Part shown: piece by piece, positions 10,947 to 59,984 of the stretch
Numbering within the stretch: position 1 is the stretch's first letter
Layout of the letters: each line of letters begins with the position of its first letter
NCBI GenBank assembly: GCA_032622095.1
Contig: CP136067.1
Span: 197,990,052-198,054,051 of the forward strand
DNA length: 64,000 nt
Reading direction: 5' to 3'
Source: Siphonodentalium dalli
Taxonomy: Eukaryota; Mollusca; Scaphopoda; Gadilida; Siphonodentaliidae
Position numbers and translations under genes: made by a program
The notes under the pieces: generated by a model
The model's database searches: none
Seen by the model: only the letters and a program-made list of their open reading frames with translations
Told to the model about the DNA's origin: nothing

Positions 10947-13900
10947 TAGACAACACACAAACCCCATTCGCCACGTCCCCGATGATAAGTCTGTACTCTG
11001 AATTGTTTTTACCAAATTAACCCTATGGTTATACGGTGGGGGGGGGGTTGCCCTCTCCAAAATTTGGTTTTGGAATGTTCGATGTACCAGTTGGAATGTT
11101 TAAACCCAAAAATAATTTGGTGTTGTTTAATGGGGTGTAGTTGGACATTTCGAGGCGAACACCCCCTCTCACTCTGTAGCCACGACCCTGTATACCAGAC
11201 GACGAATTGCCCACCCGGACAATGTACAGATATCTCCGTAATTGCAAAATAACATAGGCCGCCATACTTGTGATCGATATGCCACTTATCACGTGGGTCT
11301 TAACTTTAAGATTATCTTATGACACCTCACAGCAGTCTTAAAGTTAAGACCAAAGTTAAGACCATCTTAAGTTAAGACCTTGTTCGTGAAACGAACTTTC
11401 GACTGAAGTTTGAACTTATGACCATCTTAAGTCCCAACTATGTCATAAGTTGCTTTCATGAAACAGGGCCCAGGCATCTTTGATTTCTACAGGTGTGAAA
11501 ATCTGCTTATAAAAATCAATTAGAATGTCGCTGTCATGTATGTGCTTCATTCATTGGTATATATTTACACACTAAGTGTTGTCATCACTAAATCCAGCAT
11601 TCTGATTGGTCGGCGCCCACGTGGCTAGTTGCAGTTATTTCTCGGTGAATGCGCAAAGCCTAATAACACCAAGCTAATAACACCATCGATACGTCATTGG
11701 GTTTGGAAAGACGAATGCGTAATGCTTTGGGCGCATTTTGACTCGCGCAGGATTGACTTAATACATCATCGGGTTTCAACATGAAGAGAAATTGTTCCTA
11801 TTAACTTTTGCCAAGGGTGCTATTGGGTATTTTGGGCTGATCTTGTCACGATACACTTTTCGATTTAAATATATTTACAAAAGTGGCTTTTTTGCTAAAT
11901 GTATATAAATATAAGGATTAACTGTCATGTGGACTATTTTTATGGAGATGTAACGGTGAGGTAAGTGGACATAACTTGTATGTAAAACCCTTCGGGTTTT
12001 ACACAAGTTATGTCCACTTACCTCACCGTTACATTTCCATAAAAACAGTCCACATGACAGTTAATCCTTATATACTATTCGGGTACCCTGGCGCGACAAC
12101 ACCACCATGACTTTATAGTGTAGTGTTATTGTTCCAGCGGACCTATGGTTTTGACCAGCAAGACAATGATCGTGTTCCTATTTGAGTTTATAATTAATAT
12201 CATATATCAAAATGGACTTTCTCATAATATGTCAGGATTATTAAAAGTAGGTGCAATCAATTATTGCGTCACAATATGTAGGAACCATCAGCTCGTGGGG
12301 AATTATAATCCAATTAAATTCTTCTTTAGTCGCATATGCTCAATACCCCAATACATATGGTATGTGAGATATACAAATTTAAAAACTAATACACGACAAA
12401 AACACACGTGGCGACTACATAATTATATAATAGTATATGTATTGAAAGTACATCAACCCAGAACTTATGTCTAAACGCCCCTAAGTGTGAGTAAAAAACA
12501 CTTCAACAAGAACACATATTCGACAAGAGTCACAAGACTGAAACGAAAGAGGACAAATCCTATTTAGAGGGTGCTAACTGTGAATATCGCAAAGTTGTTG
12601 ATTTTAAATAATTGGGCATAATAACACAACAATAGAAACAAAATCATTGCATAATAAGATAAAGACCAAGCCAGAGTAGATGTGCCCGTTACTATATATA
12701 GACTATTTATGTATTTGATACACTCGCGTCATTCACAGAGGAATACACTCATAACGTGGCTCGAAAACTATTAAAATGTCGCTGTTTTCAGATAACATGT
12801 ACTTCTGTAAAATAGAACTGTTTCAAAAGTCCATCATCTGCTTATATCATAATCAAATAATCACTTATGAACCTATTTAACATTTTAGGTCGATTATGTG
12901 CCTATTTAACATTTTAGGTCGATTATGAACCTATTTCATATTTTAGATCTAATATGAACCGACTTCACATTTTAGGTCGATTATGTGCGTATTTTTGCGA
13001 CGATAACTACGTTGGAAAATCATGCGAGGAATCATATTGTTTCTTGATTCAAGATATTTCATAATTATTTTCATTCAGAAAGACAACTAACCACCAATAG
13101 ATAATGGTCTATATATTGAAAATGTTCATGTCATGCCAGCTGATCAATGGAACATCAAACTTTTAGGTCATACTGTAGGTCCATACCCAAAGCCGGCTGC
13201 CCATATTCATCTAATAGTGTGGTATATTTTCACTGGATTGTTCCCTGCTACATATTCTTGACTAATGTTCATGCACAATTTGGTTTTCATTGAGCTGAAA
13301 TATTTTAGCTGCTTAATTCTGCTTAACCCTTTACCCAACAGAGCGGCCCTCTGCCAATGCATTCTCTGATATATGCGAGTCGACCATAGGTCGCCTCGCA
13401 TATATAAGAGAATGCATTGGCTTAACACATATTAAAAATGATTAAATTGTCAAAGAATGTAGAAAAATATTATAAAAATTGTTAAAAAATGTAAGATTTT
13501 TTTTTTTAAATTGTTAAAGAATGTAAGAAATGTAGGCCAATGCATTCTCTTATATATGCGAGGCGACCTATGGTCGACTCGCATATATAAAAGAATGCAT
13601 TGGCACAGGGCATAACTGTAACCATCACAATGTGGTCAATGAACCGGTTCCAATGATATCCATATTTGTATGGTGTTAGTGAGACAGACGGAAGATATTT
13701 TAGGCTGTTGAAGCTTTATTTGGGCGTTTTTGGCCGTTTTGTTGGGTAAAGGGTTAATCCTCCTGCAAATAAGTTCAAATAGGATCTAAATATTCACACA
13801 TGTTCATACTGGACTTATATTATTCTGAAAGAAGCTCATATAGAACTTATACCAGTTATTCCGTTGAATGGCGCGGGCCGCATTGAACACACGTTATAAA

Positions 13901-16900
13901 GAACGTTCAACTGGTAAGTCGTGTCGATGAAAAAATAATGAGCTTATTTAATATTGAGATAAGCTATATACTGTCTTATTTTTGACCGGCTAGTTTTGCG
14001 CCCATATAGAGCGTATTTTTCTCAAATATTCTCTATATGGCCCTAAAATACGACACGTAAAAACAAGCCCGTATTGTGCTTCTTTTCACGCAATCAAGTT
14101 GCTAAATCATGTAATTAAAAGATTAAATCAATTCAATAATGCAAACGATGCCTCCTCTCATAGAGTCAGTACAATAAGCTATTTGGTGATTGAATTGTTG
14201 TGTGAAATAATGAATTATTCTAGCAGTTCATGGGATAATATGTAAATGATATATTCGACCAGATTAAGGTATAATACTGCATTGTGTTGTTCTATTGTTC
14301 ATAATTGTAAAGTTAAATATACAACGAAGATGAGGATATGTGCAATTAAATTGTGTATACGATCAAGGACAATATATTATTTGAAAATGACTTGCAATTT
14401 CTGCCTGGATTTATGCAAAACGCGCGTCTGGTCCTTAACCCTTAAGGATTTAACCCTTTACCCAACAAAACGGCCCTGTGTCAATGCATTCTCTTATATA
14501 TGCGAGTCGACCATAGGTCGCCCCGCATATATAAGATAATGCATTGGCTTAACACATATTAAAAATGATAAAATTGTCAAAGAATGTAGAAAAATATTAT
14601 AAATTTTTTGTTTAGGCCAATGCATTCTCTTATATATGCGAGGCGACCTATGTTCGATCGCGTATATAAGAGAATGCATTGGCATAGTGCATAACTGTAA
14701 CTATCACAATGTGGTCAATGAGCCGGTTCCAATGATATCCATATTTGTATGGTTCTAATGAGACAGACCAAAGATAATTTAGGCTGTTGCAGCTTCATTT
14801 GGGCTATTTTTCTGGGCGTTTTGTTGGGTAAAGTGTTAATTCGAGCACTCCACATATTATAGACTTCAAGCGTATATATCTTAGGCTAGTTATGCTAACA
14901 TATAGTCTTTTGTCGATAAGAAAGGCATCCGCTATGTATATATATTAACGAGAATATTCCCCTATATGTTTCAGTGCTGGTTCCAGGAAGGCAGCTTTAT
15001 CATTACCTTCCGAACAGGAAGGAAGCGTGGATCGTGACTCTGACATTGGACTGGGAGTCGAATGGCGGCCACACCTGGCAACAAGCGAGAGACGATTGTT
15101 CAAGTAAAGATGGTGAGCTGTTGCCGATGGTCGACATGGACACATATGACACATTCAACGCACTAGATAGCTCGTATCCTGGTACGTTAGTTTGACATTT
15201 CAAACTATGTAAATCATATGTTTTCAGTATCAGCTATTCGACCGGGCTAGAACATGCAGTGGCGTCCATGCAGGTGTGGTTCATTTTTAGCCCATTTTCA
15301 GTCTATCTTCAACAACAAAATATTATAAAACTTTCAGAAGTATTAAGTTCCAACTCGTTATTTTCATAGTGCATACACGCAGTTAATATATACAGTTAAA
15401 TCGTTCTTGATACATGAAACAATTACATTGAAAGGATTTCTGATGTCTTGTGTGTACATTGTGTTTTTATTTTCCATCCATTGGATGAATCTCAAATTGT
15501 GGGTCATATGACATTCGTGTAGCATTTCAGTAACGTCACCATATATATTATGGGGAAATTCATTTTGATAAATCATGAATTAGAGGCAAAACATAATTAG
15601 GTCTAAGAATTTTAACCGTTTTCGAGAAAAACAACAACATTGCTCTAATTACGTTTTGCTAGCCAAAGACATATTCAGTTTCCTCCAATGCTGGCCATAC
15701 AGATCCGGTTCAACCAAAAAACGCCACTATTTCTGAGTGAAATAAATTGCACATAATTACTGCGTACAACCGCGTTTGGCAAACTTAGAAATGTTGAGTA
15801 ATCAATTGATTGCATTTAAGTGACTTAAACGGACATGGCTCATTCGAACCTCCAAATTATTTTCTAAGTAATTTGGAGCGACTGATGCGATAGGTCGATA
15901 AATAAACGAAATAATGATATACCGGATTCATATGCTCTGATAAACACTTGCTAAAGACACAGCCATTTTACAGCCGTTTTCAACTTTTCGACAGAAGTCA
16001 GATAAACGCTCTTTATTGCTACCATATCAGGAATAGACTACCACGGAACGCTCTTTTCTGTTCCATGTCGTGCACATGGCTCTTTTGTGTTTGGGATCCA
16101 AATACCGTAATCACAGTTGTATTTTTCATTACTTCAATGCGTCTTTTGGGGTTGCATAATGATCGTAGAAAGGTAGTTCAGATATTTATCGACCTATTTT
16201 GATACTGAGAAAAATTCAAAAGCGAATAATATTATGTGTATTTTGGAGCGCAAACCGCCATGTGGCTTTAATCCACGAGGGGGTCGTGCCTGGTAAACCT
16301 AAAGTGGTATATGTGAGGTAAGTGATGGTAATATATAGTGTAAATTGCATGTATGTTTATAGTGAACACGTTATGGTGATAAAATAAGACAGAGCGGTAA
16401 TCCGACAGACGAATGTAGAACAACTAATTAAAGGTACTCAATCCGAATTAACGCTCGCAAATTACTATTTCCTTGGCTTCGGGGGTAAAAAATATTTTAT
16501 TCGAGTCGAGGCACCCACCCATCAATGCTAGGAGTGATCAGATATCGATGTTTGAAATCTATTATTTTTATTTTATGTGGCCCAGTAAACTGTATACGAG
16601 AAGAACTTATCTGACCAGATAGCGTGTGAAGATCGATAACTCTTAAATCCAGTGGCCTTTTTGTGTCAGATATTTGACAACCGGCAAAATTTCGTTAAAC
16701 AAAACGTTAATAAATAACAGGTTTTGGGCAGTTTTATACTATAGTTGACTGTTGTTAGCATTATTTTTGGGCAATTAATCGATTCTGATAACTGAAGCGG
16801 CAATTCAAAAAATGTTGTTGTTGTTGGGATCTGATTATACGGGGACCATCGAATCGGATTGAGTACCTTTAAAGAAGTGAACAAGAGATAGTGCCCTCAA

Positions 16901-19214
16901 GTTATAGTGCCTTATGGCATAACATAATCGTTATAGTGCCTTATAGCATAACATAATCCTTTTAAATAAATGGTTTTCATCGGGGTTGTGAACGGATCTA
17001 GGGAACAATACATTATTGACAAGTGAGCCATGAACATGGCGGTGCCTTTAAGACTACTGACACTCCTTGATATGATGTTCCCAAACCTCAGAGCGGCCCC
17101 AAGATAGTTGTACATGACGTGTTTGTCCAACAATAGAATTATTAAGACAAATTTCGAAAGAGAACACTACCTATCTCTGGACAACAACAGATTTGTACAC
17201 AGCCTGGTGATGTTCCGAAAAAGAAATCACAAACTACCCGTTGAACAGGGCTCATGGTACAATGTTGACTACTTGGAACGGCAATGTACCCTCTGTAATT
17301 TAGAACTAGGCGATGAATACCACATTATACTTTAGTGCTCACAAATTCACGAGTTGAGACTGAGATATATTCGCCCTTATTATTTTCGAAGACCAAACTC
17401 ACATAAGTTACTGGAATTATTTAATTCCCGAAATGAAAAAACCCACAATGAACCTGTTGATTTTCGTCGGAAAGATCTTAGACTTGTTTAAGTCCTCTTG
17501 AGGCTAAGTAGCATTCATAACATAAACCCCTCTAACTGGACTACATAGAACAAATCTAATACTATTATTATTATTACCATCTAAAAGCAACAAGCATAAA
17601 CAATATATTTTCGTATATATAATCTATATATTATAACGCATGTGCATGCATATATATATTGTGTATCTGATTCTGTAATTCTATAATCTGTAATATCACT
17701 ATATGATGACCAGAATAAACTTGAATTGAATTGAACATAAGGTGTTCAGCAATGATGAATTTGGTTCGAATCCCAAATAGCGCGGATTATATACACGCTG
17801 AGGGGAGGTAACCATATGTGTGCAGCTGGACAAGTTTGTCAGTTGTTCCTGGGATTCAGTTGTTTTCGTGTGCAGTGGGTTTATTTCTAAGCGAAATTAA
17901 CCGTTTGTGTGGTCCCCCCCATCATAAATCTGACATCGGCTAATGGATAAAACGAAGATACGCACAGGCAAACCAAACCATACAATTAAAGCCACACGTC
18001 TATTTACACTCCAAAACAAACATGATATTATTCGCTTTTGAATTTTTCTCAGTATCGAAATAGGTCGATAGTTATCTGAACTACCTTTCTACGACCATTA
18101 TGTAACCGAACATGACGCATTGAAGTATTGAAAAATACAACGGTGAATGAGGTGTTTGGGTCCCAAACACAAAACAGCCATTTGCACAACATGGAACAGA
18201 AAAGAGCATTCTGTGGTAATCTATTCCTGGTATGGTAGCAATAAAGAGAATTGTTCTGACTTCTGGCGAAAAGTTGAAAACGGCAGAAAAATGGCTGTGA
18301 CTGTGGCAAGTGTTTTTCAGAGCATATGAATCCGGTACACCAATAGTTCCTTTATTTATCGACCTATCGTATCCGTCGCTATAAATTACGTAGAAAAAAA
18401 ATTGGAGGTTCGAATGAGCCATATCCGTTTAACCCTTTACCCAACAGAACGGCCCTGTGCCAATGCATTCTCTTATATATGCGAGTCGACCATAGGTCAC
18501 CTCGCATATATAAGAGAATGCATTGGCTTAACACATATTAAAAATGATAAAATTGTCAAAGAATGTAGAAAAATATCATAATTATTTTTTTTAATGTAAG
18601 AAAAAATTACAAAATTGTTAAAGAATGTAAGAAAAAATGGTAAAAAGTGTTAAAAAATTTGTTTAGGCCAATGTATTCTCTTATATATGCGAGGCGACCT
18701 ATGGTCAACTCGCATATATAAGAGAATGCATTGGCACAGGGCATAACTGTAACCATCACAATGTGGTCAATGAACCGGTTCCAATGATATCCATATTTGT
18801 ATGGTTCTATTGAGACAGACCGAAGATATTTTAGGCTGTTGAAACTTTATTTGGCCGGTTTTGGCCGGTTTGTTGGGTAAAGGGTTAAAAGAAAACAAAG
18901 GAAATCTGAGAACTGCATTTACTAATAAACTCACAACGAGTTGTTATTCGATATGATGTATTTCAGGAATTCTGAGAACAACAAACTGGAACGTCTATTT
19001 CGTTGGTCCTAACGATCTGGCCGTGGAAGGCACATGGCGCAATGTTAACGGCTCGCTGGCTTCTATGCTCTGGCACCAAGGGGAACCAAACAATAGTGGA
19101 GACTGCGCTGTCCTCTACCACGATGATAGCTTTCCAGACAAAAGCTTTAAGCTGGATGACTACCCTTGTAGTTTATACACCCGCCGATATGTGTGTCGCT
19201 TCGATGTCAATTGA
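7716..19214 (+). CDS. Secreted PAN/apple-like plus C-type lectin protein, three coding exons
   Basis: Joining 7716-8019, 14975-15181 and 18967-19214 gives one 252-residue frame ending in TGA, with GT-AG introns all in phase 1. Residues 1 to about 21 form a signal peptide. Residues about 25-101 form a PAN/apple-like domain with cysteines at 52, 56, 61 and 73. Residues about 105-249 form a C-type lectin domain with the four canonical cysteines (143, 217, 238, 247), W136/A139 in the first helix and an EPN sugar-binding motif (E210-P211-N212). The usual WND triplet is replaced by L233-D234-D235. EPN normally goes with mannose-type binding, but the altered second site leaves calcium and sugar binding uncertain. 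The product is probably secreted, as an immune or mucus lectin. The introns are filled with MITEs. The gene looks intact. Confidence 0.85.
8172..8278. repeat. Short inverted repeat in intron 1
   Basis: Fifteen-base arms AGCCCACACTGTGAG and CTCACAATGTGGGCT (one mismatch) enclose about 77 bp. It may be a very short MITE. No target duplication was recognised. Confidence 0.4.
8279..9360. other. Intron 1 sequence, nothing recognised
   Basis: AT-rich intronic sequence of the lectin gene. No exon-like frame, RNA gene or clear repeat was identified. Confidence 0.5.
9361..11473. mobile_element. TIR element in intron 1, nested repeats
   Basis: The ends are inverted copies of GGGGCCTGTTTCATGAA (left, 9363) and GGGCCCTGTTTCATGAA (complement of the right end, 11471). 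Inside each end are runs built from TTAAGTC/GACTTAA-like short motifs (9380-9515 and 11300-11450). The interior carries poly-G tracts at about 10931-10947 and 11037-11047, inside sequence resembling the CAGGGACGTG repeat family at 54873-55631. No transposase frame remains. The CAGGGGCCTG start resembles hAT-like MITEs, but no 8-bp target duplication was found. Confidence 0.5.
11909..12073. repeat. Long near-perfect hairpin
   Basis: Two arms of about 80 bp (left ending AAAACCC at 11990, right starting GGGTTTT at 11994) pair with few mismatches and one 2-nt bulge around a 3-nt TTC loop. If transcribed with the lectin pre-mRNA it would form a long double-stranded stem. It resembles the perfect hairpin at 56055-56201 in form but not in sequence. 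Confidence 0.8.
12074..12865. other. Intron 1 sequence, nothing recognised
   Basis: AT-rich. One open frame of about 100 codons (12145-12474) has no recognisable domain and low complexity, and is treated as chance. Confidence 0.5.
12866..12981 (+). repeat. 29-bp tandem repeat, four units
   Basis: Four consecutive units built on TATGAACCTATTTAACATTT, each ending TTTTAGGTCGAT or a close variant, with substitutions but constant length. It lies in intron 1. Confidence 0.8.
13327..13753 (+). mobile_element. piggyBac-like MITE, copy 1
   Basis: A 427-bp element bounded by TTAA on both sides (13323-13326 and 13754-13757), with terminal inverted repeats CCCTTTACCCAACA / TGTTGGGTAAAGGG. TTAA target duplication and a CCCTTT start fit piggyBac. 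The interior has two 69-bp hairpins (13353-13421 and 13536-13604) in mirrored orientation around an AT-rich spacer, then a CATAACTGTAACCATCACAA segment. No transposase. Other copies are at 14454, 18433, 24683, 25424, 45806 and 59593. Confidence 0.88.
13758..14449. other. Intron 1 sequence, nothing recognised
   Basis: AT-rich spacer between two piggyBac-like MITEs. No supported gene or repeat boundary. Confidence 0.45.
14454..14835 (+). mobile_element. piggyBac-like MITE, copy 2
   Basis: Flanked by TTAA at 14450-14453 and 14836-14839. The left TIR is intact; the right TIR has one change (AAAGTG for AAAGGG). Both 69-bp hairpins are present, the second with a mutated loop (TTCGATCGCG in place of GTCGACTCGC). 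It lies only 140 bp upstream of exon 2. Confidence 0.87.
14975..15181 (+). CDS. Lectin gene coding exon 2: first half of the lectin domain
   Basis: The acceptor TATGTTTCAG ends at 14974. The exon starts in phase 1 and reads VLVPGRQLYHY, then the first lectin helix with W136, A139 and C143 and a GELLPMVD strand. The donor CCTG/GTACGT follows 15181. At 207 bp it keeps frame with exons 1 and 3, so it could also be skipped without a frameshift. Confidence 0.85.
15182..15819. other. Intron 2 start, nothing recognised
   Basis: AT-rich sequence between the exon 2 donor and the dispersed repeat beginning near 15820. No gene-like frame. Confidence 0.45.
15820..16290 (+). repeat. Dispersed repeat X, copy 1 (unoccupied end)
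   Basis: Homologous to 17985-18428 and 24262-24678, which lie in the opposite orientation. Shared blocks include CGCTCTTTATTGCTACCATA, GAACGCTCTTTTCTGTTCCA and ATAGGTCGATAAA. At its 15820 end the sequence reads TTAAACGGACATGGCTC, an intact TTAA without an adjacent MITE. In the other two copies a piggyBac-like MITE follows directly at this point. No transposase or terminal inverted repeat was recognised. Confidence 0.7.
16432..16868 (+). mobile_element. TTAA-type MITE family Y, copy 1
   Basis: TTAA (16428-16431 and 16869-16872) flanks a 437-bp element with TIRs AGGTACTCAATCCGA / TCGGATTGAGTACCT. It is homologous, in inverted orientation, to 58018-58485. A short TTG trinucleotide run lies near the right end. 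TTAA targets are used by piggyBac and Kolobok elements; the termini differ from the CCCTTTACCC family, so this is a separate lineage. No coding capacity. Confidence 0.75.
17108..17733 (+). pseudogene. Non-LTR retrotransposon 3' end (ORF2 C-terminus and tail)
   Basis: The frame 17108-17335, and after a stop on to about 17490, reads as the C-terminal domain of a LINE polymerase: FRKRNHKLPVEQGSW, then C-x2-C (CTLC), then GDEYH. This cysteine/GDEYH block is conserved in CR1/L2-like and related LINEs. A non-coding 3' region follows, ending at about 17733 in a TTGAATTGAATTGAA-type short-repeat tail, as such LINEs have. A stop after HIIL and the missing upstream polymerase show a 5'-truncated dead copy. 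It lies in intron 2 of the lectin gene. Confidence 0.75.
17985..18428 (-). repeat. Dispersed repeat X, copy 2, abutting a MITE
   Basis: Minus-strand copy of repeat X (see 15820-16290). Shared text includes AATAGGTCGATA and GGTCCCAAACACAAAA. Its end, ATGAGCCATATCCGTTTAA, runs directly into the TTAA of the piggyBac-like MITE at 18433. Confidence 0.7.
18433..18884 (+). mobile_element. piggyBac-like MITE, copy 3
   Basis: A 452-bp copy with TTAA at 18429-18432 and 18885-18888 and intact CCCTTTACCCAACA TIRs. Both hairpins are present. The spacer is longer than in other copies because GAATGTAAGAAAAAA-type sequence is repeated. Its left end sits on the end of repeat X, and its right end is about 80 bp from lectin exon 3. 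Confidence 0.88.
18967..19214 (+). CDS. Lectin gene coding exon 3: ligand-binding half and stop
   Basis: The acceptor GTATTTCAG ends at 18966. The exon encodes the WNVYFVG strand, WHQGEPNNSGDC with the EPN motif and C217, then KLDDYPC (C238) and RRYVC (C247), ending FDVN and TGA at 19212-19214. The short C-terminal tail has no membrane segment. Confidence 0.88.
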
Positions 19215-19627: not shown

Positions 19628-19629
19628 TA

Positions 19630-19822: not shown

Positions 19823-20090
19823 GCTTTTTTCGTCTCGCCGCAGATAAAACTGTGTAGTATTCTGTACGTAACTTGTAACGTCTGTTGCCATTACCAACGA
19901 ACGTAATCTGACTCACGTGACCATTTAGCCAACACATACACGGTCCTTCCATGTTAGTCGAGTTTTGTCCAATGTGCAGTATTGTAGCAAATAGGAATAT
20001 TCTAACCTGTTAATAGGCCGGTTGGGAACTACAAATTGCCACCCACACGACTAACTGCAAATACGAGAAACACACGTTTATCGTGATGCA

Positions 20091-24261: not shown

Positions 24262-24678
24262 TTTGCGCACCAGAATACACCTAATAATATTCGTTTTTGA
24301 ACTGTTCCTGGTATGGAAATAGGTCGATAAACACTTGAACTATCATCATACAAGCATTATATGTATCAGAAAGACGCATTGAAGTAATCAAAAAATCAAC
24401 TTTGAACAAGATGTTTGGTCCCAAACAAAAACAGCAATTTTGGACTGCATGGGGCAGAAAAGAGCGTTCCGTGTTAGTCTATCCTGATTTGGTCGAAATA
24501 AAGACCGTTGTTTTTCATTTCTGTGCGAACAATTGGCTGTGCAATGGCTGCGACCATGGAACCTACTGTTAAGAGCATATGATGCCGGTATATAAACATT
24601 TCGTATATATTTCAACTTATGTTTTACCTCCTTCCAAACTACGAGACAAAATTTGGAAACTCGTATGAGCCATGTCCG
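24262..24678 (-). repeat. Dispersed repeat X, copy 3, abutting a MITE
   Basis: Diverged minus-strand copy of repeat X with ATAGGTCGATAAACACTTGA and GGTCCCAAACAAAAACAG blocks. It ends TATGAGCCATGTCCG and runs straight into TTAA and the MITE at 24683, exactly as copy 2 does. Confidence 0.65.
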
Positions 24679-24682
24679 TTAA

Positions 24683-25073
24683 CCCTTTACCCAACAGAAT
24701 GGCCCTGTGCCAATGCATTCTCTTATATATGCGAGTCGACCATAGGTCGCCTCGCATATATAAGAGAATGCATTGGCTTAACACATTAAAAATTATAAAA
24801 TTGTTAAAGAATGTAAGAAAAAATGGTAAAAAGTGTTAAAAAATATTTTGTTTAGGCCAATGCATTCTCTTATATATGCGAGGCGACCTATGGTCGACTC
24901 GCATATATAAGAGAATGCATTGGCACAAGGCATAACTGTAACTATCATAATGTGGTCGAGGAGCCGGTTCCAATGATATCCATATTTGTATGGATCTATT
25001 GAGACAGACCGAAGATATTTTAGGCTGTTGAAGCTTTATTTGGCCGGTTTTGGCCGGTTTGTTGGGTAAAGGG
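24683..25073 (+). mobile_element. piggyBac-like MITE, copy 4
   Basis: A 391-bp element with TTAA at 24679-24682 and 25074-25077, intact 14-bp TIRs and two intact hairpins. Next to repeat X copy 3. Confidence 0.88.
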
Positions 25074-25423: not shown

Positions 25424-25781
25424 CCCTTTACCCAACAAACCGGCCAAAACCGGCCAAATAAAGCTTCAACAGCCTAAATTATCTTGGGTCTGTCTCAATA
25501 AAACCATACAAATATGGATATCATTGGAACCAGCTCCTTGACCACATTGTGATTGTTACAGTTATGCCCTGTGCCAATGCATTCTCTTATATATGAGAAT
25601 GCATTGGCCTAAAAAAATCTTTTTTTAACACTTTTTATCATTTTTTCTTACATTCTTTAACAATTTTATAATTTTTAATGTGTTAAGCCAATGCATTCTC
25701 TTATATATGCGAGGCGACCTATGGTCGACTCGCATATATATGAGAATGCATTGGCACAGGGCCGTTCTATTGGGTAAAGGG
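25424..25781 (-). mobile_element. piggyBac-like MITE, copy 5, inverted, one hairpin collapsed
   Basis: A 358-bp inverted copy. The right flank is TTAA (25782-25785); the left flank reads ATAA, one change from TTAA. One hairpin has lost its whole loop region and reads TCTTATATATGAGAATGC, while the other (about 25687-25755) is intact. The collapse looks like a deletion within the palindrome. Confidence 0.85.
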
Positions 25782-31500: not shown

Positions 31501-31694
31501 AAAACAGTGAAGCAGTGCGCGGTTGGCTGCAGACTTGTCTTTGCTAAGGACATGTGAGTGTTTTTAAATAGTATTCGCACCGAGGTGCCACTGTCTTTGT
31601 GATTTCGAATGTGAATTGCGATAGTCGTTGAAGACCACAACTGAGCTTTGTGTGCTTGAGTAACAGAAACGCCGATCAACACTAAAGTCATAGC

Positions 31695-32222
31695 CAGGGA
31701 AGGATCCAGGGCTCTTTTGATACCTGTTACAGGTTTGGGCGCCCAAACTCTGGTGGCCTAAATGTCCCCAAATTGCAAGTGGATAGTTTTATTAAAGCTG
31801 AATTTTCTATATTTTGAAGGAAATCTTCTATTATAATTCAACAACATGCAATGCAAATCATCAATATACAGTTGATATAGAGCCTTTATTTGCTTAATCA
31901 AGTGTCCAGTGAGAAATATTTTAACGCTTTCATGACTGGGGCTTCTTGAAATTTTGCAAAAATCCTGTGCCAATGCATTCTCTTATATAAATGAGTCTCC
32001 CATCTAAGGAGCCTCGCATATATAAGATAATACATTGGCCTTTATCTTGACCTTGTAAGCCAGTGCATTTTCTTATGCGGGATCTTTAATGCTGCACCTA
32101 AGGGAGGGGGTGACCCCCTCCCGTACCTACCCCCATCTCGGGCCTACGACCCTCGGGATATGCCTTCGGCATATCATGGTCCCAAAACAGGTGTCCCCAA
32201 AAAATCCCTGGATCCATCCCTG
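31695..32222. mobile_element. hAT-like MITE with exact 8-bp target duplication, carrying the shared hairpin
   Basis: The element starts CAGGGAAGGATCCAGGG and ends with the complement of CAGGGATGGATCCAGGG. The 8 bases on each side are identical, GTCATAGC at 31687-31694 and 32223-32230, as expected for hAT insertion. Inside, 31969-32039 is a degenerate version of the 69-bp hairpin of the piggyBac-like MITEs, and a half copy begins near 32058 (GCCAGTGCATTTTCTTATG). A GGGAGGGGG/CCCCCTCCC stem lies at about 32103-32123. Confidence 0.85.
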
Positions 32223-37670: not shown

Positions 37671-38317
37671 GCGCGTTTCGTCGAATTTTTACACTTGTTG
37701 GCTATTTGCGATAGCATCATGTCTATATCGACTTAGTCGGCAATAGTCGAAGACAATAGTTTTATAGCCCGTTCTGTAACGTTTCTACAGTTTCTGAATT
37801 GGTTTCGATCTGATGACTCATTAGTTTAGTTTTAGAACTAAGGTTGGTGATGCCAACGCATCTGTCGTCAAATATTCTATCAAAATCAGGACTTATTGAG
37901 GCTTGTTCAGCTAAAGAACTGCCACGTACATGTATCAGAGCACATCATCAAGGGCATGTTGTAAGTATGCAAGACGTGTGTCATGTGTATTATTGTCAGT
38001 TTTTATCAAAGTTATCTCGGCGAAATGTTCTGCAATTTTGTATTGTCATGGAATTTCACTGACACACTTGGTTAGCTAACTGTATTATATTATAAATATA
38101 TAGGTCGATTTTAGTGGTAACTGGGTTTCCAGCATCACGTTGGACAATCCCTTTCAATTTGTATTCATAAATATAATCACTGATATTTACAGCTTGCGAA
38201 AATACATTTTGTTTGAATTCATCAAGCCGTTTTTCGTCAGTTTGAGCCCATATCAACATGTTCGATTATATGCATGCAATGTTTTTACCATAGTGGACTC
38301 TCTTGCATATATAGAAA
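37671..38317. other. No gene seen
   Basis: AT-rich sequence without a recognised gene or repeat boundary. Confidence 0.45.
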
Positions 38318-38592
38318 ACATCCATTACCCTACAGGGAGCCCCACACATATATAGAAGCATATAGAAGAGTGTCGTCTGCTCATGTTTGTCTGGGGCTCT
38401 GTATGGGTGAAATTATAAAATTGTTAAAGAATACAAGAACAAATTATTAAAATTGTAAAACATTGTTAGGCCAATGCATTCTCTTATATATGCGATGCGA
38501 CCTATGGTCGACTCGCATATATAAGAGAATGCATTGGCACAGGGTAAAAAAATCCCGACTTACGACTGGATTTGATATGGCGGGTCACATAT
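38318..38592 (+). mobile_element. Family Z MITE, half copy 1
   Basis: Begins at the central CATCCATTACCCTACAGGGA region of family Z and runs through the AT-rich spacer, one 69-bp hairpin (about 38468-38537), and the right end GACTGGATTTGATATGGCGG then GTCACATATA. The other half is missing. The complete copy is at 58541-59007. Confidence 0.7.
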
Positions 38593-38689: not shown

Positions 38690-39049
38690 ATCAATTGAAC
38701 ATACATTCATAGAGGCACTGTGTACGGCCGTATACTTATATGAACCCGACATGTAACTTTAAATGTCCCAGAAAGTTCGGCAACCTATACTGTTCACTTG
38801 TGGTGTAGACCAGGAATTAGTATGTTGCTGTTTTTGTAACACCAATTATAAACCATAGGCACACGACAAAGATTGTGTCGACAATAGGAGACCGAGCGTC
38901 AGTCGCGATAGCTCAATCGATTGTACCAAGAATTTGAAAGCACTGTTCACTGCGACCCTTGAGTTTCCGCTTCAGGAAGACATGTCCTTTTGTTACTTAA
39001 TTATTGTTTATCGTACCTTTCATCGAGAGCGGCACTCCTGTATCCAGGT
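38690..39049. other. Satellite flank, no gene
   Basis: Unassigned sequence between the 44-bp repeats and the 32-bp satellite. A tRNA-like GATAGCTCAATCGATTG occurs near 38910 but has no matching B box or fold. Confidence 0.4.
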
Positions 39050-41737
39050 GTCAAAACCAATCAGTGTATGCACAACATAGTGTCAAAACCAATCAGTGTA
39101 TGCACAACATAGTGTCAAAACCAATCAGTGTATGCACAACATAGTGTCAATACCAATCAGTGTATGCACAACATAGTGTCAAAACCAATCAGTGTATGCA
39201 CAACATAGTGTCAATACCAATCAGTGTATGCACAACATAGTGTCAAAACCAATCAGCGTATGCACAACATAGTGTCAAAACCAATCAGTGTATGCACAAC
39301 ATAGTGTCAAAACCAATCAGTGTATGCACAACATAGTGTCAAAACCAATCAGTGTATGCACAACATAGTGTCAATACCAATCAGTGTATGCACAACAGAG
39401 TGCCAAAACCAATCAGTGTATGCACAACATAGTGTCAAAACCAACCAGTGTATGCACAACATAGTGTCAAAACCAATCAGTGTATACACAACATAGTGTC
39501 AAAACCAATAAGTGTATGCACAACATAGTGTCAAAACCAATCAGTGAATGCACAACATAGTGTCAAAACCAATCAGTGTATGCACAACATAGTGTCAATA
39601 CCAATCAGTGTATGCACAACAGAGTGTCAAAACCAATCAGTGTATGCACAACATAGTGTCAAAACCAATCAGTGTATGCACAACATAGTGTCAAAACCAA
39701 TCAGTGTATCCACAACATAGTGTCAATACCAATCAGTGTATGCACAAAATAGTGTCAATACCAATCAGTGTATGCACAACATAGTGTCAAAACCAATCAG
39801 TGTATGCACAACATAGTGTCAAAACCAATCAGTGTATGCACAACATAGTGTCAAAACCAATCAGTGTATGCACAACATAGTGTCAATACCAATCAGTGTA
39901 TGCACAAAATAGTGTCAATACCAATCAGTGTATGCACAACATAGTGTCAAAACAAATCAGTGTATGCACAACATAGTGTCAAAACCAATCAGTGTATGCA
40001 CAACATAGTGTCAAAACCAATCAGTGTATGCACAACATAGTGTCAATACCAATCAGTGTATGCACAACATAGTGTCAATACCAACCAGTGTATGCACAAG
40101 ATAGTGTCAATACCAATCAGTGTATGCACAACATAGTATCAATACCAATCAGTGTATGCACAACATAGTGTCAAGACCTATCAGTGTATGCACAACATAG
40201 TGTCAAAACCAATCAGTGTATGCACAACATAGTGTCAAAACCAATCAGTGTATGCACAACATAGTGTCAATACCAATCAGTGTATGCACAACAGAGTGCC
40301 AAAACCAATCAGTGTATGCACAACATAGTGTCAAAACCAATCAGTGTATGCACAACATAGTGTCAAAACCAATCAGTGTATGCACAATATAGTGTCAAAA
40401 CCAATCAGTGTATGCACAACATAGTGTCAAAACCAATCAGTGTATGCACAACATAGTGTCAAAACCAATCAGTGTATGCACAACATAGTGTCAAAACCAA
40501 CCAGTGTATGCACAACATAGTGTCAAAACCAATCAGTGTATGCACAACAGCGTGTCAATACCAATCAGTGTATGCACAACAGAGTGTCAAAACCAATAAG
40601 TGTATGCACAACAGAGTGTCAAAACCAATCAGTGTATGAACAACATAGTGTCAAAACCAATCAGTGTATGCACAACATAGTGTCAAAACCAATTAGTGTA
40701 TGCACAACATAGTGTCAAAACCAATCAGTGTATGCACAACATAGTGTCAAAACCAATCAGTGTATGCACAACATAGTGTCAAAACCAATCAGTGTATGCA
40801 CAACATAGTGTCAATACCAATCAGTGTATGCACAACAGAGTGCCAAAACCAATCAGTGTATGCACAACATAGTGTCAAAACCAACCAGTGTATGCACAAC
40901 ATAGTGTCAAAACCAATCAGTGTATGCACAACATAGTGTCAAAACCAATCAGTGTATGCACAACATAGTGTCAAAACCAATCAGTGAATGCACAACATAG
41001 TGTCAAAACCAATCAGTGTATGCACAACATAGTGTCAATACCAATCAGTGTATGCACAACAGAGTGTCAAAACCAATCAGTGTATGCACAACATAGTGTC
41101 AAAACCAATCAGTGTATGCACAACATAGTGTCAAAACCAATCAGTGTATCCACAACATAGTGTCAATACCAATCAGTGTATGCACAAAATAGTGTCAATA
41201 CTAATCAGTGTATGCACAACATAGTGTCAAAACCAATCAGTGTATGCACAACATAGTGCCAAAACCAATCAGTGTATGCACAACATAGTGTCAAAACCAA
41301 TCAGTGTATGCACAACATAGTGTCAATACCAATCAGTGTATGCACAAAATAGTGTCAATACCAATCAGTGTATGCACAACATAGTGTCAAAACCAATCAG
41401 TGTATGCACAACATAGTGTCAATACCAATCAGTGTATGCACAACATAGTGTCAATACCAATCAGTGTATGCACAAGATAGTGTCAATACCAATCAGTGTA
41501 TGCACAACATAGTATCAATACCAATCAGTGTATGCACAACATAGTGTCAAGACCTATCAGTGTATGCACAACATAGTGTCAAAACCAATCAGTGTATGCA
41601 CAACATAGTGTCAAAACCAATCAGTGTATGCACAACATAGTGTCAAAACCAATCAGTGTATGCACAACAGAGTGTCAAAACCAATCAGTGTATGCACAAC
41701 AGAGTGTCAAAACCAATCAGTGTATGCACAACAGAGA
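39050..41737 (+). repeat. 32-bp satellite, about 84 units
   Basis: The unit is GTCAAAACCAATCAGTGTAT then GCACAACATAGT. GTC positions at 39050 and 41706 differ by exactly 83 x 32, so there is no net indel across the array. Recurrent variants (AATACC for AAAACC, ACAGAG or ACAAAA for ACATAG, AAGACCTATC) are arranged in blocks. The stretch 39301-40020 matches 40741-41460 with about seven differences, an offset of 1440 bp or 45 units. Past that point the matching variants are 43 units apart, implying a two-unit deletion in the second block. Each unit contains a CCAATCA motif. Confidence 0.95.
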
Positions 41738-41993
41738 GTGTTGCAGGTTATATCGAAAACAACACAAGCCCACAAACAACATCGAAGAAAAAAATGCGAC
41801 GTAAGCACAGTGTAATACATAGTCTCAATGTATGAAGTCTTGAAAGCAAACTCAAACCCAAACTCAAACTCAAGCGATTTGATTTGTCAATCGATATATT
41901 TTACATGATAAATACAACTGGGCTCTGTTAAAGTCGTAGCTTATATGTCAGATCCCTATAACATTGAGAGAAATTGATAGCATATGTATAATT

Positions 41994-42688
41994 CATGATG
42001 GATGATATTAGAAAAAAACAAAATGCGATCTTTATAGAGGTTTTAAAAATTATTGTTTTCGTCCCCAAATCCAACAATCATAAAATAAATTTGTAAGAAC
42101 AAAGACATAAAATGTGTACTGAACACTGTACAGAATGTTGAGCAACAAACATATATTCATATTTACAAAATGTGCTTTGAAACAAATACTCAGAACAACT
42201 TGTTGACAAATTGTAGATTTATTTACTCAGTATGCTGTATGTTAGTTGACTATTGATTGGTTGGTTAGGGGCCACCTTGTGGCCAATTCAGCTGGGATAG
42301 TTATCAGCATGTGTGGCATCTGGCCCATGCAAGATTATGAGTGCTGAACTATTGAGTGGTTACAAGGTGGTGGGATAAATTTAAGCTCAAGAAATTATTT
42401 TATCAACTCACCACTGTCCAAAGATAACCAATTGCTGCCATCTCCCAGTTGACCATGTTGGGGAAGTAAATCAATCAATCGTAGACAACAGGTTTTGAGT
42501 AAATTTTCCAAAGAACGCTTGCTAGATATGAATATATTTTTGTTGTTCAACATTATTCAGTGTTAGGTACACACTTCCATGTTTTGTTCTGAGAAATTGA
42601 TTTTGTGTTTGTTTGATTTGGGGACGAAAACTATAATTTTTAAAACCGTTATAAAGATCACATTGTTTCCCTAATATAATCCATCATG
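41994..42688. mobile_element. Foldback-type element with about 100-bp arms
   Basis: The left end CATGATGGATGATATTAG and following sequence, including GGTTTTAAAAATTATTGTTT and TCGTCCCCAAATC, return in inverted order up to CCATCATG at 42688. A second inner inverted repeat (GATTGGTTGG near 42255 and CAATCAATCG near 42472) nests within. No open frame. Superfamily unknown, and no target duplication was found. Confidence 0.65.
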
Positions 42689-43187
42689 ACGTATTAAAAT
42701 GGTGCACAAATTGTCTTGGTTATTGTGCTTACTAATAAGTGACCATAATCCTTTAATATATACTCTATACAATTTTGGGGGGAATGGATTGACAAAGCCC
42801 TTAGTGTATATAAGTATGCTCTTATGAAAGAGAGTAGCTGTGAAGCTAACTGTACGACGTTAGATAATGGTTTATAGACATGATTTCTAATAAAGTGAGT
42901 TAGTCCCTAGCTTTTGTGATGAAGTATTCTTTTGAATATCTTTAGTAATCCATGTTCAATTATATACGTAACTTCCAGTCTGCAGGGAGGCTATTCCATA
43001 ATATTCTAGCTCTGTTTGGTATGGCACCTATGGATATCTAATTCGTTTTCCAATTTGTTCTTTGCGGATGAAGTTTAATCTGTATTCGCTGATAACAAAA
43101 TACCACACAAAATTCCCCCTTTAATTCCGTAAGATTGGTATATTCTCTGGGATTAATGCCTAATTTGTCCGTTTACCGGGCCTCGGA
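42689..43187. repeat. Flank with a solitary 44-bp repeat copy
   Basis: Mostly unassigned. At 42964-43007 it carries a third copy of the 44-bp repeat of 38591-38678 (ATACGTAACTTCCAGTCTGC..., one change early in the unit). Confidence 0.6.
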
Positions 43188-44488
43188 CGATTTTCGTTCC
43201 CCGCTTGTCGGCTTAGAGGCCAAAATTTCAATTTGTTACTACCCCAGCGGACGATATTTGTTGACCAACTTTTCGCCTTAGAGGTCAAAATTTCAATTTG
43301 TTACTACCCCATCGGCCGATTTTCGTTGCCCAACTTTTCGCCTTAGAGGCCAATGTAATTTGTTTGTTTTTTTCAGATAGTCGGCTTTCGTTGCATTACC
43401 TCTCGTCATACAAGTCATTGATAACATAATTCCTTTCTTTCCATTCATTAATGTTCAAGAACCTCTCGTTGACTTTAATAACTCATAACGTCTGTGATTT
43501 TATAACTTGTTGATGGTATTACTCATAACGTCTGTGATTTGATAACTTGTTGCTGTTATTACTCATAACGTCTGTGATTTTGTAACTTGTTGCTGTTATT
43601 ACTCATAACGTCTATGATTTTATAACTTGTTGCTGTTATTACTCATAACGTATGTGATTTTAAAACTTGTCGCTGTTATTACTCATAACGTCTGTGTTGT
43701 TTTATTCCCTCCACGATTTTCGTTCCCCGCTTGTCGGTTTAGAGGCCAAAATTTCAATTTGTTACTACCCCAGCGGACGATATTTGTTGACCAACTTTTC
43801 GCCTTAGAGGTCAAAATTTCAATTTGTTACTACCCCATCGGCCGATTTTCGTTGCCCAACTTTTCGCCTTAGAGGCCAATGTAATTTGTTTGTTTTTTTC
43901 AGATAGTCGGCTTTCGTTGCATTACCTCTCGTCATACAAGTCATTGATAACATAATTCCTTTCTTTCCATTCATTAATGTTCAAGAACCTCTCGTTGACT
44001 TTAATAACTCATAACGTCTGTGATTTTATAACTTGTTGATGGTATTACTCATAACGTCTGTGATTTGATAACTTGTTGCTGTTATTACTCATAACGTCTG
44101 TGATTTTGTAACTTGTTGCTGTTATTACTCATAACGTCTATGATTTTATAACTTGTTGCTGTTATTACTCATAACGTCTGTGATTTTAAAACTTGTCGCT
44201 GTTATTACTCATAACGTCTGTGATTTTATAACTTGTTGCTGTTATTACTCCATAACGTCTGTGATTGTATAACTTGTTGCTGTTATTACTCATAACGTAT
44301 GTGATTTTATAACTTGTTGCTGTTATTACTCATAACGTCTGTGATTTTGTAACTTGTTGCTGTTATTACTCATAACGTCTATGATTTTATAACTTATTGC
44401 TGTTATTACTCATAACGTCTGTGATTTTAAAACTTGTCGCTGTTATTACTCATAACGTCTGTGATTTTATAACTTGTTGCTGTAATTC
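43188..44488 (+). repeat. 526-bp tandem duplication containing a 40-bp minisatellite
   Basis: The segment from CGATTTTCGTTCCCCGCTTG (43189) recurs at 43715, a period of 526 bp and nearly identical. Each copy ends in tandem 40-bp units of ATTACTCATAACGTCTGTGA then TTTTATAACTTGTTGCTGTT. The first array has about six units (to about 43700), the second about twelve (about 44005-44488). Within the upstream part GCGGACGATATTTGTTGACC and GGCCGATTTTCGTTGCCC are themselves related blocks. No gene. Confidence 0.9.
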
Positions 44489-45284
44489 ATTTCCTCCGCA
44501 GAACGAAATTCCATATTACTTTTGACATTTATACACGAAGTGAGATATTTAGAGCTGATACTCTCCTTCTTTATTATATGTGTAAATCTCTGTATAGTGG
44601 CTCTTCTGTATGATTCAACTGTTGTTTTATTCCCTCCATGAACATATTTGCATATAGAGTCTGAGATACTGCAAGAAAACAAAACATTATTTAAAATCCA
44701 TCCTACAACTTTAAAATATGATTCTTCAATGCTATAGCAATTCCTTCTTTATCTATTCCTAAATCTAAATATACTTTGCATACATCACTTTTTCCAATCT
44801 CATGCATTTGAAATATGTCGTATGGCAATCCTCATTTGAATGCAGTAGTTCCCACACTTCTTCTATAACTGCGACGAATAGTTATGAGAATTACCTCCTG
44901 TTTTTTGAATTAATTCGATCAATCCTTTGAAATTGTGGGTAAGTTAAAGCCTTTCATATCAGTTTATATAGAGTAGTTGCCCTTGGATCGAAAGTGATCT
45001 CACGCAGAGTGGGAACCTTTTGTGCGCCATCGAAACGTCATGATATGTGGTAATCAATTACTTCCGATGGTAGGATTTTTCTCTTTGTTACAAGCAATAT
45101 TATCTGAATTGCGATTCAAAAGACTACTCAATTCTCGAGAGTGTGGTACCCGTTGTTTAATATTATTGACACTTATGTAATGTAATCGACATGTCTCTCA
45201 TGATCTCAGACATGTTACAATTGGTAAAAATTGATTGTGTACCACAGCTTTTTGGTCCGCTTGCTAATATTCCCAATACACATC
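44489..45284. other. Unassigned; faint minus-strand coding-like segment
   Basis: Between about 44690 and 44890 the minus strand reads FQMHEIGKSDVCKVYLDLGI with an upstream YRRSVGTTAFK segment. It looks like eroded coding sequence, but I cannot assign a family. The stretch holds no intact frame. Confidence 0.3.
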
Positions 45285-45541
45285 CAGTCGTAAGCCGGGA
45301 TTGTTTTACCCTGTGCCAATGCATTCTCTTATATATGAGAGTCGACGATAGGTCGCCTCGCATATATAAGAGAATGCATTGGCCTAACAATTTTTTTTAC
45401 AATTTTAATAATTTTTTCTTGTATTCTTTAACAATTTTATTATTTCACCCATACAGAGCCCCATACAAACATGAGCAGACGACACTCTTCTATATGCTTC
45501 TATATATGTGTGGGGCTCCCTGCAGGGTAATATATGTTTTA
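45285..45541 (-). mobile_element. Family Z MITE, half copy 2
   Basis: Inverted half element: the end resembling ATCCAGTCGTAAGCCGGGAT, one hairpin (about 45317-45384, one arm altered), the spacer, then the GAGCCCC...GGGGCTC centre ending near CCTGCAGGGTAATATATG. It stops at nearly the same central point as half copy 1. Confidence 0.7.
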
Positions 45542-45805: not shown

Positions 45806-46188
45806 ACAACAGAAGGGCCCTGTGCCAATGCATTCTCTTATATATGCGAGTCGACCATAGGTCGCCTCGCATATATAAGAGAATGCATTGGCTTAACACA
45901 TTAAAAATTATAAAATTGTTAAAGAATGTAAGAAAAAATGGTAAAAAGTGTTAAAAAGATTTTTTTTTAGGCCAATGCATTCTCTTATATATGCGATGCG
46001 ACCTATGGTCGACTCGCATATATAAGAGAATGCATTGGCACAGGGCATAACTGTAACCATCACAATGTGGTTAATGAGCCGGTTCCAATGATATCCATAT
46101 TTGTATGGTTCTATTGAGACAGACCGAAGATATTTTAGGCTGTTGAAGCTTTATTTGGCCGGTTTTGGCCGGTTTGTTGGGTAAAGGG
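45806..46188 (+). mobile_element. piggyBac-like MITE, copy 6, left end lost
   Basis: The right TIR and TTAA (46189-46192) are intact and both hairpins are present. The left TIR is missing: homology begins at CAACAGAA, followed by GGGCCCTG, without TTAACCCTTTACC. The left end was therefore truncated or overwritten after insertion. Confidence 0.82.
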
Positions 46189-46192
46189 TTAA

Positions 46193-46572: not shown

Positions 46573-46862
46573 GCTTCGCATTTATAATTTCACCCATACA
46601 GAGCCCCAGACAAACATGAGCAGACGACACTCTTCTTTATGCTTCTATATATGTGTGGGGCTCCCTGCAGGGTAATGGATGTTTTTTTATTTTATGTCCT
46701 AAAAATTGTAAGAAACATTTATTTAAAAAAAATTATAAAAAATTGTTAGGCCAATGCATTCTCTTATATATGCGAGGCGACCTATGGTCGACTCGCATAT
46801 ATAAGAGAATGCATTGGCAGAGGGTAAAAAAATCCAGAATTACGACTGGATTTGATATGGCT
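46573..46862 (+). mobile_element. Family Z MITE, fragment 3
   Basis: Contains the reversed centre (GAGCCCC to CCTGCAGGGTAATGGATG), the second-arm spacer (TTTATGTCCTAAAAATTGTA), one hairpin (about 46749-46818) and the end GACTGGATTTGATATGGC, where homology stops before GGGTCAC. The left arm hairpin is absent. Confidence 0.65.
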
Positions 46863-58013: not shown

Positions 58014-58017
58014 TTAA

Positions 58018-58485
58018 AGGTACCCAATCCGATCAGACGGTCCCCATATCATCAAGATACAACAACAACAACAACAACAACATTTCTTCAAAATACACTT
58101 TAGTTACCAGAATCGAGTAACTGCAACAAAATAATTCTAACAACTGTCAACTATGGTATCAAATTTCCCAAAACGTGTTATTTATCAACATTTTGATCAA
58201 CGAAATATGGCCGTATTATCACTTGATTGTTCACGAAATTTGGCCGTATTACCACTTGTTTTTAGAGTTATCCATCTTCATCCGCAAATTGTGATTGAGA
58301 CCATCCGTTTGACGACGTGTTTCTGGGCCACTATTAATTGAAATAACATACTTCAAAAGTCGATATCTGATCACTCTCAGCTTTGATGGGTGGGTTCCTC
58401 GAAACGAATCAAATACTTTTGCCCCCCCCCCCAACCGAAGCCAAATCAATAGTAGTTTAGGAGCAGTATGTCGGATTGAGTACCT
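58018..58485 (-). mobile_element. TTAA-type MITE family Y, copy 2
   Basis: Inverted homologue of 16432-16868. TTAA at 58014-58017 precedes AGGTACCCAATCCGA; the far end is TCGGATTGAGTACCT with TCAA in place of TTAA. A (CAA)n microsatellite lies at about 58060-58082 and a poly-C run near 58422. Confidence 0.72.
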
Positions 58486-58540
58486 TCAAGAGAAATATTT
58501 TATCTGGAAGATATGCAAACAAAACAATGGGATCGTATGT

Positions 58541-59007
58541 ATATATGTGACCCGCCATATCAAATCCAGTCGGGATTTTTTTTACCCTGTGCCAATGCAT
58601 TCTCTTATATATTCGAGTCGACCATAGGTCGCCTCGCATATATAAGAGAATGCATTGGCCTAACAATTTTTTATCATGTTTTTTAAATAAATGTTTCTTA
58701 CAATTTTTAGGACATAAAATAAAAAAACATCCATTACCCTGCAGGGAGCCCCACACATATATAGAAGCAATTAGAAGAGTGTCGTCTGCTCGTGTTTGTC
58801 TGGGGCTCTGTACGTATGGGTGAAATTATAAAATTGTTACAGAAAACAAGAAAAAGTTATTAAAATTGTAAAAAATTGTTAGGCCAATGCATTCTCTTAT
58901 ATATGCGAGGCGACCGATGGTCGACTCGCATATATAAGAGAATGCATTGGCACAGGGTAAAAAAATCCCGACTTCCGACTGGATTTGATATGGCGGGTCA
59001 CATATAT
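58541..59007. mobile_element. Family Z MITE, complete copy
   Basis: Both ends carry ATATATGTGACCCGCCATAT followed by the CAAATCCAGTCG block in inverted orientation. Each arm then has an A/T run, CCCTGT and a 69-bp hairpin (about 58591-58659 and 58882-58950). The centre carries CATCCATTACCCTGCAGGGA and a GAGCCCC...GGGGCTC stem. Hairpin and AT-rich spacer sequences match those of the piggyBac-like MITEs, but the terminal repeats do not. Confidence 0.8.
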
Positions 59008-59588
59008 AGACTCTCACTGTATGTGGCAGGCAAGACTGCGAGTATTGCATGCGGTGGGGTGGGGGCATGGTTGAACTTTTGTGGGAATTTTTCCCCAAGT
59101 AACTTTCTAATAGATAAGTATATAAATACATGCATAAAATAAATGTGTCGCTACTCTTGTAGTTTTTTCAATTGCTACAAAATTCTATTTTTTTTTTTTA
59201 CGGAAATCGTTCTTTTTTGTCTCGGTTGTGACTGGTTCCATGGATTCAACTATTCTATAGTGTAATGTTCTCAAAAAGGCATAGCAAAGGCTGAGTATTT
59301 CCAGTTTACATCAATAAATATATATCTTACATAAAAGTATACACATGTGTAGCGCATCTAATTAATCCAAGTTGTTTATTACAGGCGTGGCAATTCGTTT
59401 AATCTAATCGACCCTTAATACATATGTATTAAGATAACTTATAATATGCAGACATGGGCGACATATCTAGTATGACATTACATGTTAACTGGAGTTTTTC
59501 CTGGAGATCTAATAAACTGTTTTTTTATGTGGCGCATTCATAAAGAAGACGAAGAGGCATTTCCTTTACATATTACAGAGCATTTCAT
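59008..59588. other. No gene seen
   Basis: Unassigned AT-rich sequence between a family Z element and a piggyBac-like MITE. Confidence 0.4.
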
Positions 59589-59592
59589 TTAA

Positions 59593-59984
59593 CCCTTTAC
59601 CCAACAGAACGACCCTGTGCCAATGCATTCTCTTATATATGCGAGTCGACCATAGGTCGCCTCGCATATATAAGAGAATGCATTGGCTTAACACATTAAA
59701 AATTATAAAATTGTTAAACATTGTAATAAAAAATGGTAAAAAGTGTTAAAAAAAGATTTGTTTTAGGCCAATGCATTCTCTTATATATGCGAGGCGACCT
59801 ATGGTCGACTCGCATATATAAGAGAATGCATTGGCACAGGGCATAACTGTAACCATCACAATGTGGTCAAGGAGCCGGTTCCAATGATATCCATATTTGT
59901 ATGGTTCTATTGGGACAGACCGAAGATATGTTAGGCTGTTGAAGCTTTATTTGGCCGGTTTTGGCCGGTTTGTTGGGTAAAGGG
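59593..59984 (+). mobile_element. piggyBac-like MITE, copy 7
   Basis: A 392-bp copy with TTAA at 59589-59592 and 59985-59988, intact TIRs and two intact hairpins. Confidence 0.88.

Follow-up and report, generated by a model that had tools for sequence, protein, structure and literature searches.

In a 64,000-nucleotide stretch of the genome of the scaphopod mollusc Siphonodentalium dalli (GenBank assembly GCA_032622095.1, contig CP136067.1, positions 197,990,052 to 198,054,051 of the forward strand), miniature inverted-repeat transposable elements (MITEs) with different ends carry the same 69-bp near-perfect palindrome, which in two of the three element types lies within a larger shared core. 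The whole stretch is referred to below as the window; positions are counted from its first letter, and searches for further copies cover this window. The carriers are piggyBac-type MITEs (family A), a foldback-like family (family Z) and one hAT-type MITE. We propose, with a probability of roughly 55%, that the core was captured from a broken Z-like palindrome by other MITEs and then amplified by the recipients' ends.

The sequence GCCAATGCATTCTCTTATAT was matched 40 times at ≤3 mismatches, corresponding to 20 arm pairs, and no match at this threshold was obtained in 100 shuffles of the window, which confirms the roughly twenty copies of a near-perfect palindrome reported in a preliminary description of this DNA. 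The hairpins are distributed as 14 in family A, 5 in family Z and 1 in the hAT-type MITE; 17 of the 20 are 69 bp long, and the others have lengths of 68 bp (A2 right), 36 bp (A5 right, tip deleted) and 71 bp (hAT). The folding energy of the consensus 69-mer is −54.3 kcal/mol, compared with a mean of −13.6 over 200 shuffles. The left hairpin of A4 is identical to the consensus (−54.3 kcal/mol), and the right hairpin of A5 still has a 14-bp stem. None of the 20 hairpins is solo in the window, and after these copies had been masked a profile search detected no further hairpin there outside A, Z and the hAT-type element (best E 1.3).

One T·C mismatch in the hairpin stem serves as an orientation mark. 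Judged by this mark, left and right hairpins are reverse complements of each other in 7 of 8 pairs (the A5 pair is unreadable owing to its deleted right tip), which makes the core an inverted repeat of inverted repeats. The mirrored pairs of the preliminary description are thus recovered, whereas the bounds CCCTGT/ACAGGG that it assigned to them are not exact in every copy, with point changes, for example, in A1 left, A2 right, A4 right and Z4.

Family A consists of seven elements of about 358-452 bp with two hairpins each, at the following positions (TIR, terminal inverted repeat).

13327-13753, + strand: A1, piggyBac-type MITE; hairpins 13353-13421 and 13536-13604; 14-bp TIRs, TTAA on both sides.
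14454-14835, + strand: A2, piggyBac-type MITE; hairpins 14480-14548 and 14616-14683 (68 bp); TTAA on both sides, right TIR with 1 mismatch.
18433-18884, + strand: A3, piggyBac-type MITE; hairpins 18459-18527 and 18667-18735; TTAA on both sides.
24683-25073, + strand: A4, piggyBac-type MITE; hairpins 24709-24777 and 24856-24924; TTAA on both sides.
25424-25781, − strand: A5, piggyBac-type MITE; hairpins 25687-25755 and 25573-25608 (36 bp, tip deleted); TTAA/TTAT.
45812-46188 (left limit approximate), + strand: A6, piggyBac-type MITE with the left end lost; hairpins 45824-45892 and 45971-46039; TTAA on the right only.
59593-59984, + strand: A7, piggyBac-type MITE; hairpins 59619-59687 and 59767-59835; TTAA on both sides.

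The count of seven piggyBac-like MITEs given earlier was reproduced; TTAA, the target-site duplication (TSD) of the piggyBac type, was found on both sides in only five of the seven (A1, A2, A3, A4 and A7), A5 being flanked by TTAA/TTAT and A6 having lost its left end. The TIR CCCTTTACCCAACA is 14 bp long, with at most one mismatch at 13 of the 14 ends, and has both the length (12-19 bp) and the CC[C/T]T end by which elements are assigned to the piggyBac type in a study of coral MITEs (PMC2872659). Beyond these 13 A ends, the window contains a single further match to it, at 19921 with 2 mismatches.

In intact A copies, the distance from the end to the nearest hairpin is 26 bp on the left and 149 bp on the right (152 bp on the right in A2); with CCCTGT/ACAGGG counted as part of the core, the distances to the core are 20 and 143 bp (146 bp on the right in A2). 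Such unequal arms are expected of an insertion of the core into A. All seven A copies contain the core, and since no core-free A element was seen in the window, we consider that the composite itself was amplified.

It should be noted that A3 and A4 sit at the end of another repeat, present in three diverged copies (15825-16272, 17985-18432 and 24262-24680, the latter two with 74% and 88% identity to the first), which end at CCGTTTAA or CCGTTAA. The two MITEs occupy this end in two of the three copies. The sequences to the right, compared by eye, are different in each; either two insertions used the same TTAA or the repeat terminates there.

Family Z, a foldback-like family, is represented by one complete and three half copies carrying five hairpins.

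58547-59001, + strand: Z1, complete foldback-like element with GTGACCCGCC ends; hairpins 58591-58659 and 58883-58951.
38315-38588, + strand: Z2, half Z (centre and right side); hairpin 38470-38538; weak 6-bp direct repeat CATATA.
45284-45540, − strand: Z3, half Z (right side and centre, inverted); hairpin 45315-45383; AATACACAT at 45275 and 45541.
46580-46859, − strand: Z4, half Z (left side and centre, inverted); hairpin 46750-46818; GCTTCGC at 46573 and 46860.
58724-58832, + strand: Z centre, 109 bp in Z1 and 105 bp in Z2-Z4; the three half copies have their inner end at its far edge.

Z1 (455 bp) is nearly one long inverted repeat, with 76% identity to its reverse complement in an alignment of 493 columns, nearly symmetric arms and, as single-stranded DNA, a folding energy of −166.7 kcal/mol (z −28.9). 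Its flanks are TATATA-like on both sides, and a target duplication is unreadable there. The half copies Z2, Z3 and Z4 each contain one hairpin, an outer arm of differing length and the central block, and stop at the far edge of this block. Only three ends, the two of Z1 and the right one of Z2, have GTGACCCGCC together with the 13 bases that follow it; four Z copies with such ends had been described, of which Z3 and Z4 proved to be truncated. By eye, the central block (58724-58832) is a loose hairpin (GAGCCCCA ... TGGGGCTC).

The unit common to A and Z comprises CCCTGT, the 69-bp hairpin, an AT-rich spacer, the inverted 69-bp hairpin and ACAGGG, and amounts to 228 bp in A4; Z has an additional left spacer and the central block. 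The position of the homologous spacer is given here for A4.

24778-24855, + strand: AT-rich spacer of A4, homologous to the right spacer of Z1, Z2 and Z3.

The local alignment scores of the A4 spacer against Z1, Z2 and Z3 are 34, 36 and 39, against null maxima of 24, 23 and 31, and were reached by 0 of 500 shuffles in each comparison. Because the homology between A and Z spans the hairpins and the spacer, the shared unit is the double-hairpin core and not the lone 69-bp hairpin; the hairpin had been taken as the shared element, and the unit is larger than was claimed. The outer arms show no likeness in the four comparisons made, A-left/Z, A-right/Z, A-right/hAT-left and Z/hAT-left (A-left/hAT and the hAT right arm were left out). 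A shared interior with unrelated ends, as proposed in the preliminary description, thus holds for A and Z, the hAT-type MITE being known from one copy only.

The A right arm and the CCCTTTACCCAACA end were not found in Z or in the hAT-type MITE in the window. Nesting of a whole A element in Z or hAT was considered and rejected, as neither contains A ends or the A right arm. Simple nesting of a piggyBac-like MITE, the contrary case raised in the preliminary description, was likewise not seen: the A end and right arm occur at A only, apart from the two-mismatch match mentioned above.

The third carrier is a single element.

31695-32222, + strand: hAT-type MITE; hairpin 31969-32039; TIR CAGGGATGGATCCAGGG, TSD GTCATAGC.
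32058-32085, + strand: possible half hairpin in the hAT-type MITE; nhmmer E 1.3, marginal.

Elements of the hAT type are characterized by an 8-bp target duplication and a short TIR beginning with CAG. Both are present here: the exact 8-bp duplication GTCATAGC is located at 31687 and 32223 and nowhere else on the + strand of the window, and the TIRs CAGGGATGGATCCAGGG have 1 mismatch at the left end. The hairpin of this element is a degenerate copy, in which CCTGT and the first 21 bases are exact and the tip is changed (−28.4 kcal/mol). The exact duplication had been reported correctly, while the additional half copy near 32058, with E 1.3, is not significant on its own.

The identity of the hairpins is 0.976 among those of A, 0.971 among those of Z and, across the two families, 0.974 (17 hairpins of 69 bp, 12 from A and 5 from Z; A2 right, A5 right and hAT left out). 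Fixed differences between A and Z were found at 0 of 69 hairpin positions versus 7 of 62 spacer positions (Fisher p = 0.004), the latter from four of the seven A spacers and three of the four Z spacers, the rest being rearranged or belonging to the other side. Within A, the hairpins contain 0/138 informative sites, compared with 7/149 in the right arm (p = 0.015), and all deviations are 12/896 versus 40/1046 (p = 6 × 10−4), while singletons (12/896 versus 25/1046) differ less clearly (p = 0.098); A5 right was left out of the last two counts. Most of the deficit in the hairpin concerns changes that more than one copy inherited, and this pattern points to the amplifying copies and not to repair after insertion. 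All these counts are small, and the AT-rich spacer may mutate faster.

Palindromic DNA is prone to breakage. We consider it most likely that the source was a foldback-like element of Z type, whose hairpin continues without a break into the outer arm as a single long inverted repeat, that a fragment containing the core would have been captured in a piggyBac-type MITE at break or gap repair and a single hairpin inside a hAT-type MITE, and that the composite would then have been mobilised through the recipient's own ends. The direction from Z to the others, the route through break or gap repair and a selective benefit of the hairpin are what we infer; template switching into animal TIR elements has itself been inferred from sequence comparisons (PMC8277862).

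The half-Z pieces bear on the first step of this capture model. Z3 is abutted by a 9-bp direct repeat, AATACACAT (null fraction 0.0025), and Z4 by a 7-bp direct repeat, GCTTCGC (null fraction 0.01), each relative to 4000 random point pairs; for the 6-bp repeat CATATA at Z2 the null fraction is 0.029 with limits set by alignment and 0.30 in a looser test. The main test took the limits from alignments, and the looser one took the best repeat within 20 bp of earlier limits. Because the outer truncation points of Z3 and Z4 differ and both pieces are nonetheless bordered by direct repeats, broken Z pieces probably insert on their own, and the position of half-Z pieces between direct repeats suggests that palindrome fragments may enter the genome without intact ends.

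Several observations weigh against capture from Z. The Z3 and Z4 repeats were spotted by eye ahead of testing, and the looser test, which gave repeats of 6 bp at Z1, Z2 and Z3 and 7 bp at Z4 (the Z3 limits then being poor), revealed nothing unusual, with null fractions of 0.09 (Z4) and 0.30 (Z1, Z2 and Z3). The sequence following the hAT hairpin is unlike the A spacer, its score being reached by 422 of 500 shuffles; since there is one copy only and no A-like spacer, the hairpin of the hAT-type MITE could stem from a nested insertion private to this element. TA is present on both sides of the Z core at CCCTGT, which also fits a TA-targeting insertion. Finally, neither a donor-recipient junction nor a core-free relative of A or of the hAT-type MITE was seen in the window, so that the direction of capture is unproved.

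The conservation counts raise a tentative possibility that is compatible with capture, namely that the hairpin is kept by a function in amplification, as a cis signal for transposition or replication or as a small-RNA precursor. The lack of fixed A/Z differences in the hairpin and its low share of informative sites and total deviations within A speak in its favour, but the singletons alone are not clearly different, faster mutation of the AT-rich spacer could suffice to produce the contrast, and among the 15 hairpin deviations, three of which leave a G-T pair, there is no compensated Watson-Crick change and hence no support from covariation. If the core is selected, the success of a MITE would depend on more than the ends recognised by transposase.

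It is rather unlikely that the core was itself a MITE, with CCCTGTGCC termini and perhaps a TA target, which nested in the ancestors of A, Z and hAT and was then amplified. Its ends are indeed inverted repeats, its limits CCCTGT/ACAGGG are the same in A and Z, and TA flanks it on both sides in Z; the A consensus, however, has no TSD-like repeat at CCCTGT (a 2-bp repeat, GC, appears at CCTGT if one base is dropped), no hairpin is solo in the window, and the hAT copy has no A-type spacer. Of the two options left by the preliminary description, we therefore favour capture of the hairpin by several transposon families over a nested mobile module, because the target duplication is inconsistent (TA in Z, none in A) and there are no solo copies in the window. 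A Tc1/mariner-type MITE has a TA target duplication at every insertion; at CCCTGT the core shows TA in Z and none in the A consensus.

We regard as improbable a more far-reaching version, in which the core is a cis-acting amplifier acquired by different transposase families because it helps any carrier, for instance by an advantage in replication or excision or by making or absorbing small RNAs. If this were true, MITE families would be modular, with exchangeable ends on a selected common core.

Least probable is ongoing gene conversion between hairpins that keeps the families alike, which would explain why identity across families equals that within families and why A6 right and Z2 right both carry C>A at position 43, but in none of the six elements with two hairpins in the comparison do left and right have a variant in common, no deviation out of the 15 reappears in the opposite arm, and by rough estimate one shared variant among so few is not improbable by chance. 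For the same lack of shared or compensated changes, conversion within a hairpin or between left and right hairpins after insertion was rejected (A2 right and A5 right were not in the set).

Other features of the window include a satellite array at 39048-41733 (32-bp unit, about 84 copies, 95% matches), a long inverted repeat at 41940-42739 (67% identity to its own reverse complement, 831 columns), alternating 65-bp and 40-bp tandem arrays, each occurring twice, at 43184-44487, and a G+C-richer stretch with overlapping open frames at 62332-63590. One of these frames resembles, by eye, a DIRS-type tyrosine recombinase; four frames of this stretch tried against Pfam gave no match. Pfam searches with 10 of the 18 listed open frames of the window gave nothing above the cut-off and two weak hits below it.

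No Rfam family reached its gathering score in the window. At a permissive threshold, the region 58540-59990 gave 47 hits, mostly to many different miRNA families and all below gathering, which we read as a probable effect of palindromic sequence. Exact 26- and 20-base pieces of the hairpin had no match in the viral or genome contig collections, and the A7 region (59591-59990) had none in the phage collection. A 17-base piece of the A right arm matched 5 viral contigs; by our own estimate these matches are probably due to chance, the word being so short. Among the matches listed from the open-licence literature, no publication describes the hairpin by title or abstract.

Compared with foldback-like elements, Z1 is similar in being nearly one long inverted repeat and differs in being only 455 bp long, with no tandem array scoring ≥100. 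MADE1, which consists as a whole element of two 37-bp TIRs around 6 bp and is an example of a palindromic MITE turned miRNA gene (hsa-mir-548; PMC1784062), resembles our hairpin as a short near-perfect palindrome whose transcript would fold stably into a hairpin as large as a precursor. In contrast to MADE1, the hairpin described here is an inner part of larger elements and occurs mostly in mirrored pairs. As with Pack-TIRs, animal TIR elements that take in foreign DNA, through template switching in the models of that study, and may then multiply it (PMC8277862), DNA appears to have been taken up by the recipients; unlike the capture of sequences outside transposable elements by Pack-TIRs, the captured DNA here would be a palindromic piece of another MITE.

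The closest precedent is provided by the CMITEs of Acropora corals, in which families with different TIRs and TTAA sites share a 75-bp interior that is better conserved between families than the ends, and a CMITE insertion built a new composite element (PMC2872659). The likeness consists in an interior shared across different TIRs, with TTAA sites and, in most CMITE families, CCCTTT-type ends as in A. The CMITE interior is 75 bp in elements of about 100 bp, and no 69-bp hairpin is described in the parts of the text covered; a 26-base piece of the printed interior consensus, the only piece sought, had no match in the window at ≤3 mismatches. Whereas CMITEs are described with TTAA sites, the hairpin studied here is also found with Z and hAT ends; new features are a core that is palindromic and an interior shared by elements with different types of target site. 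The origin of MITE interiors and their sharing across different ends were left open in that study, and to this question the window contributes a core whose orientation can be read from an internal mark, together with truncated copies flanked by direct repeats.

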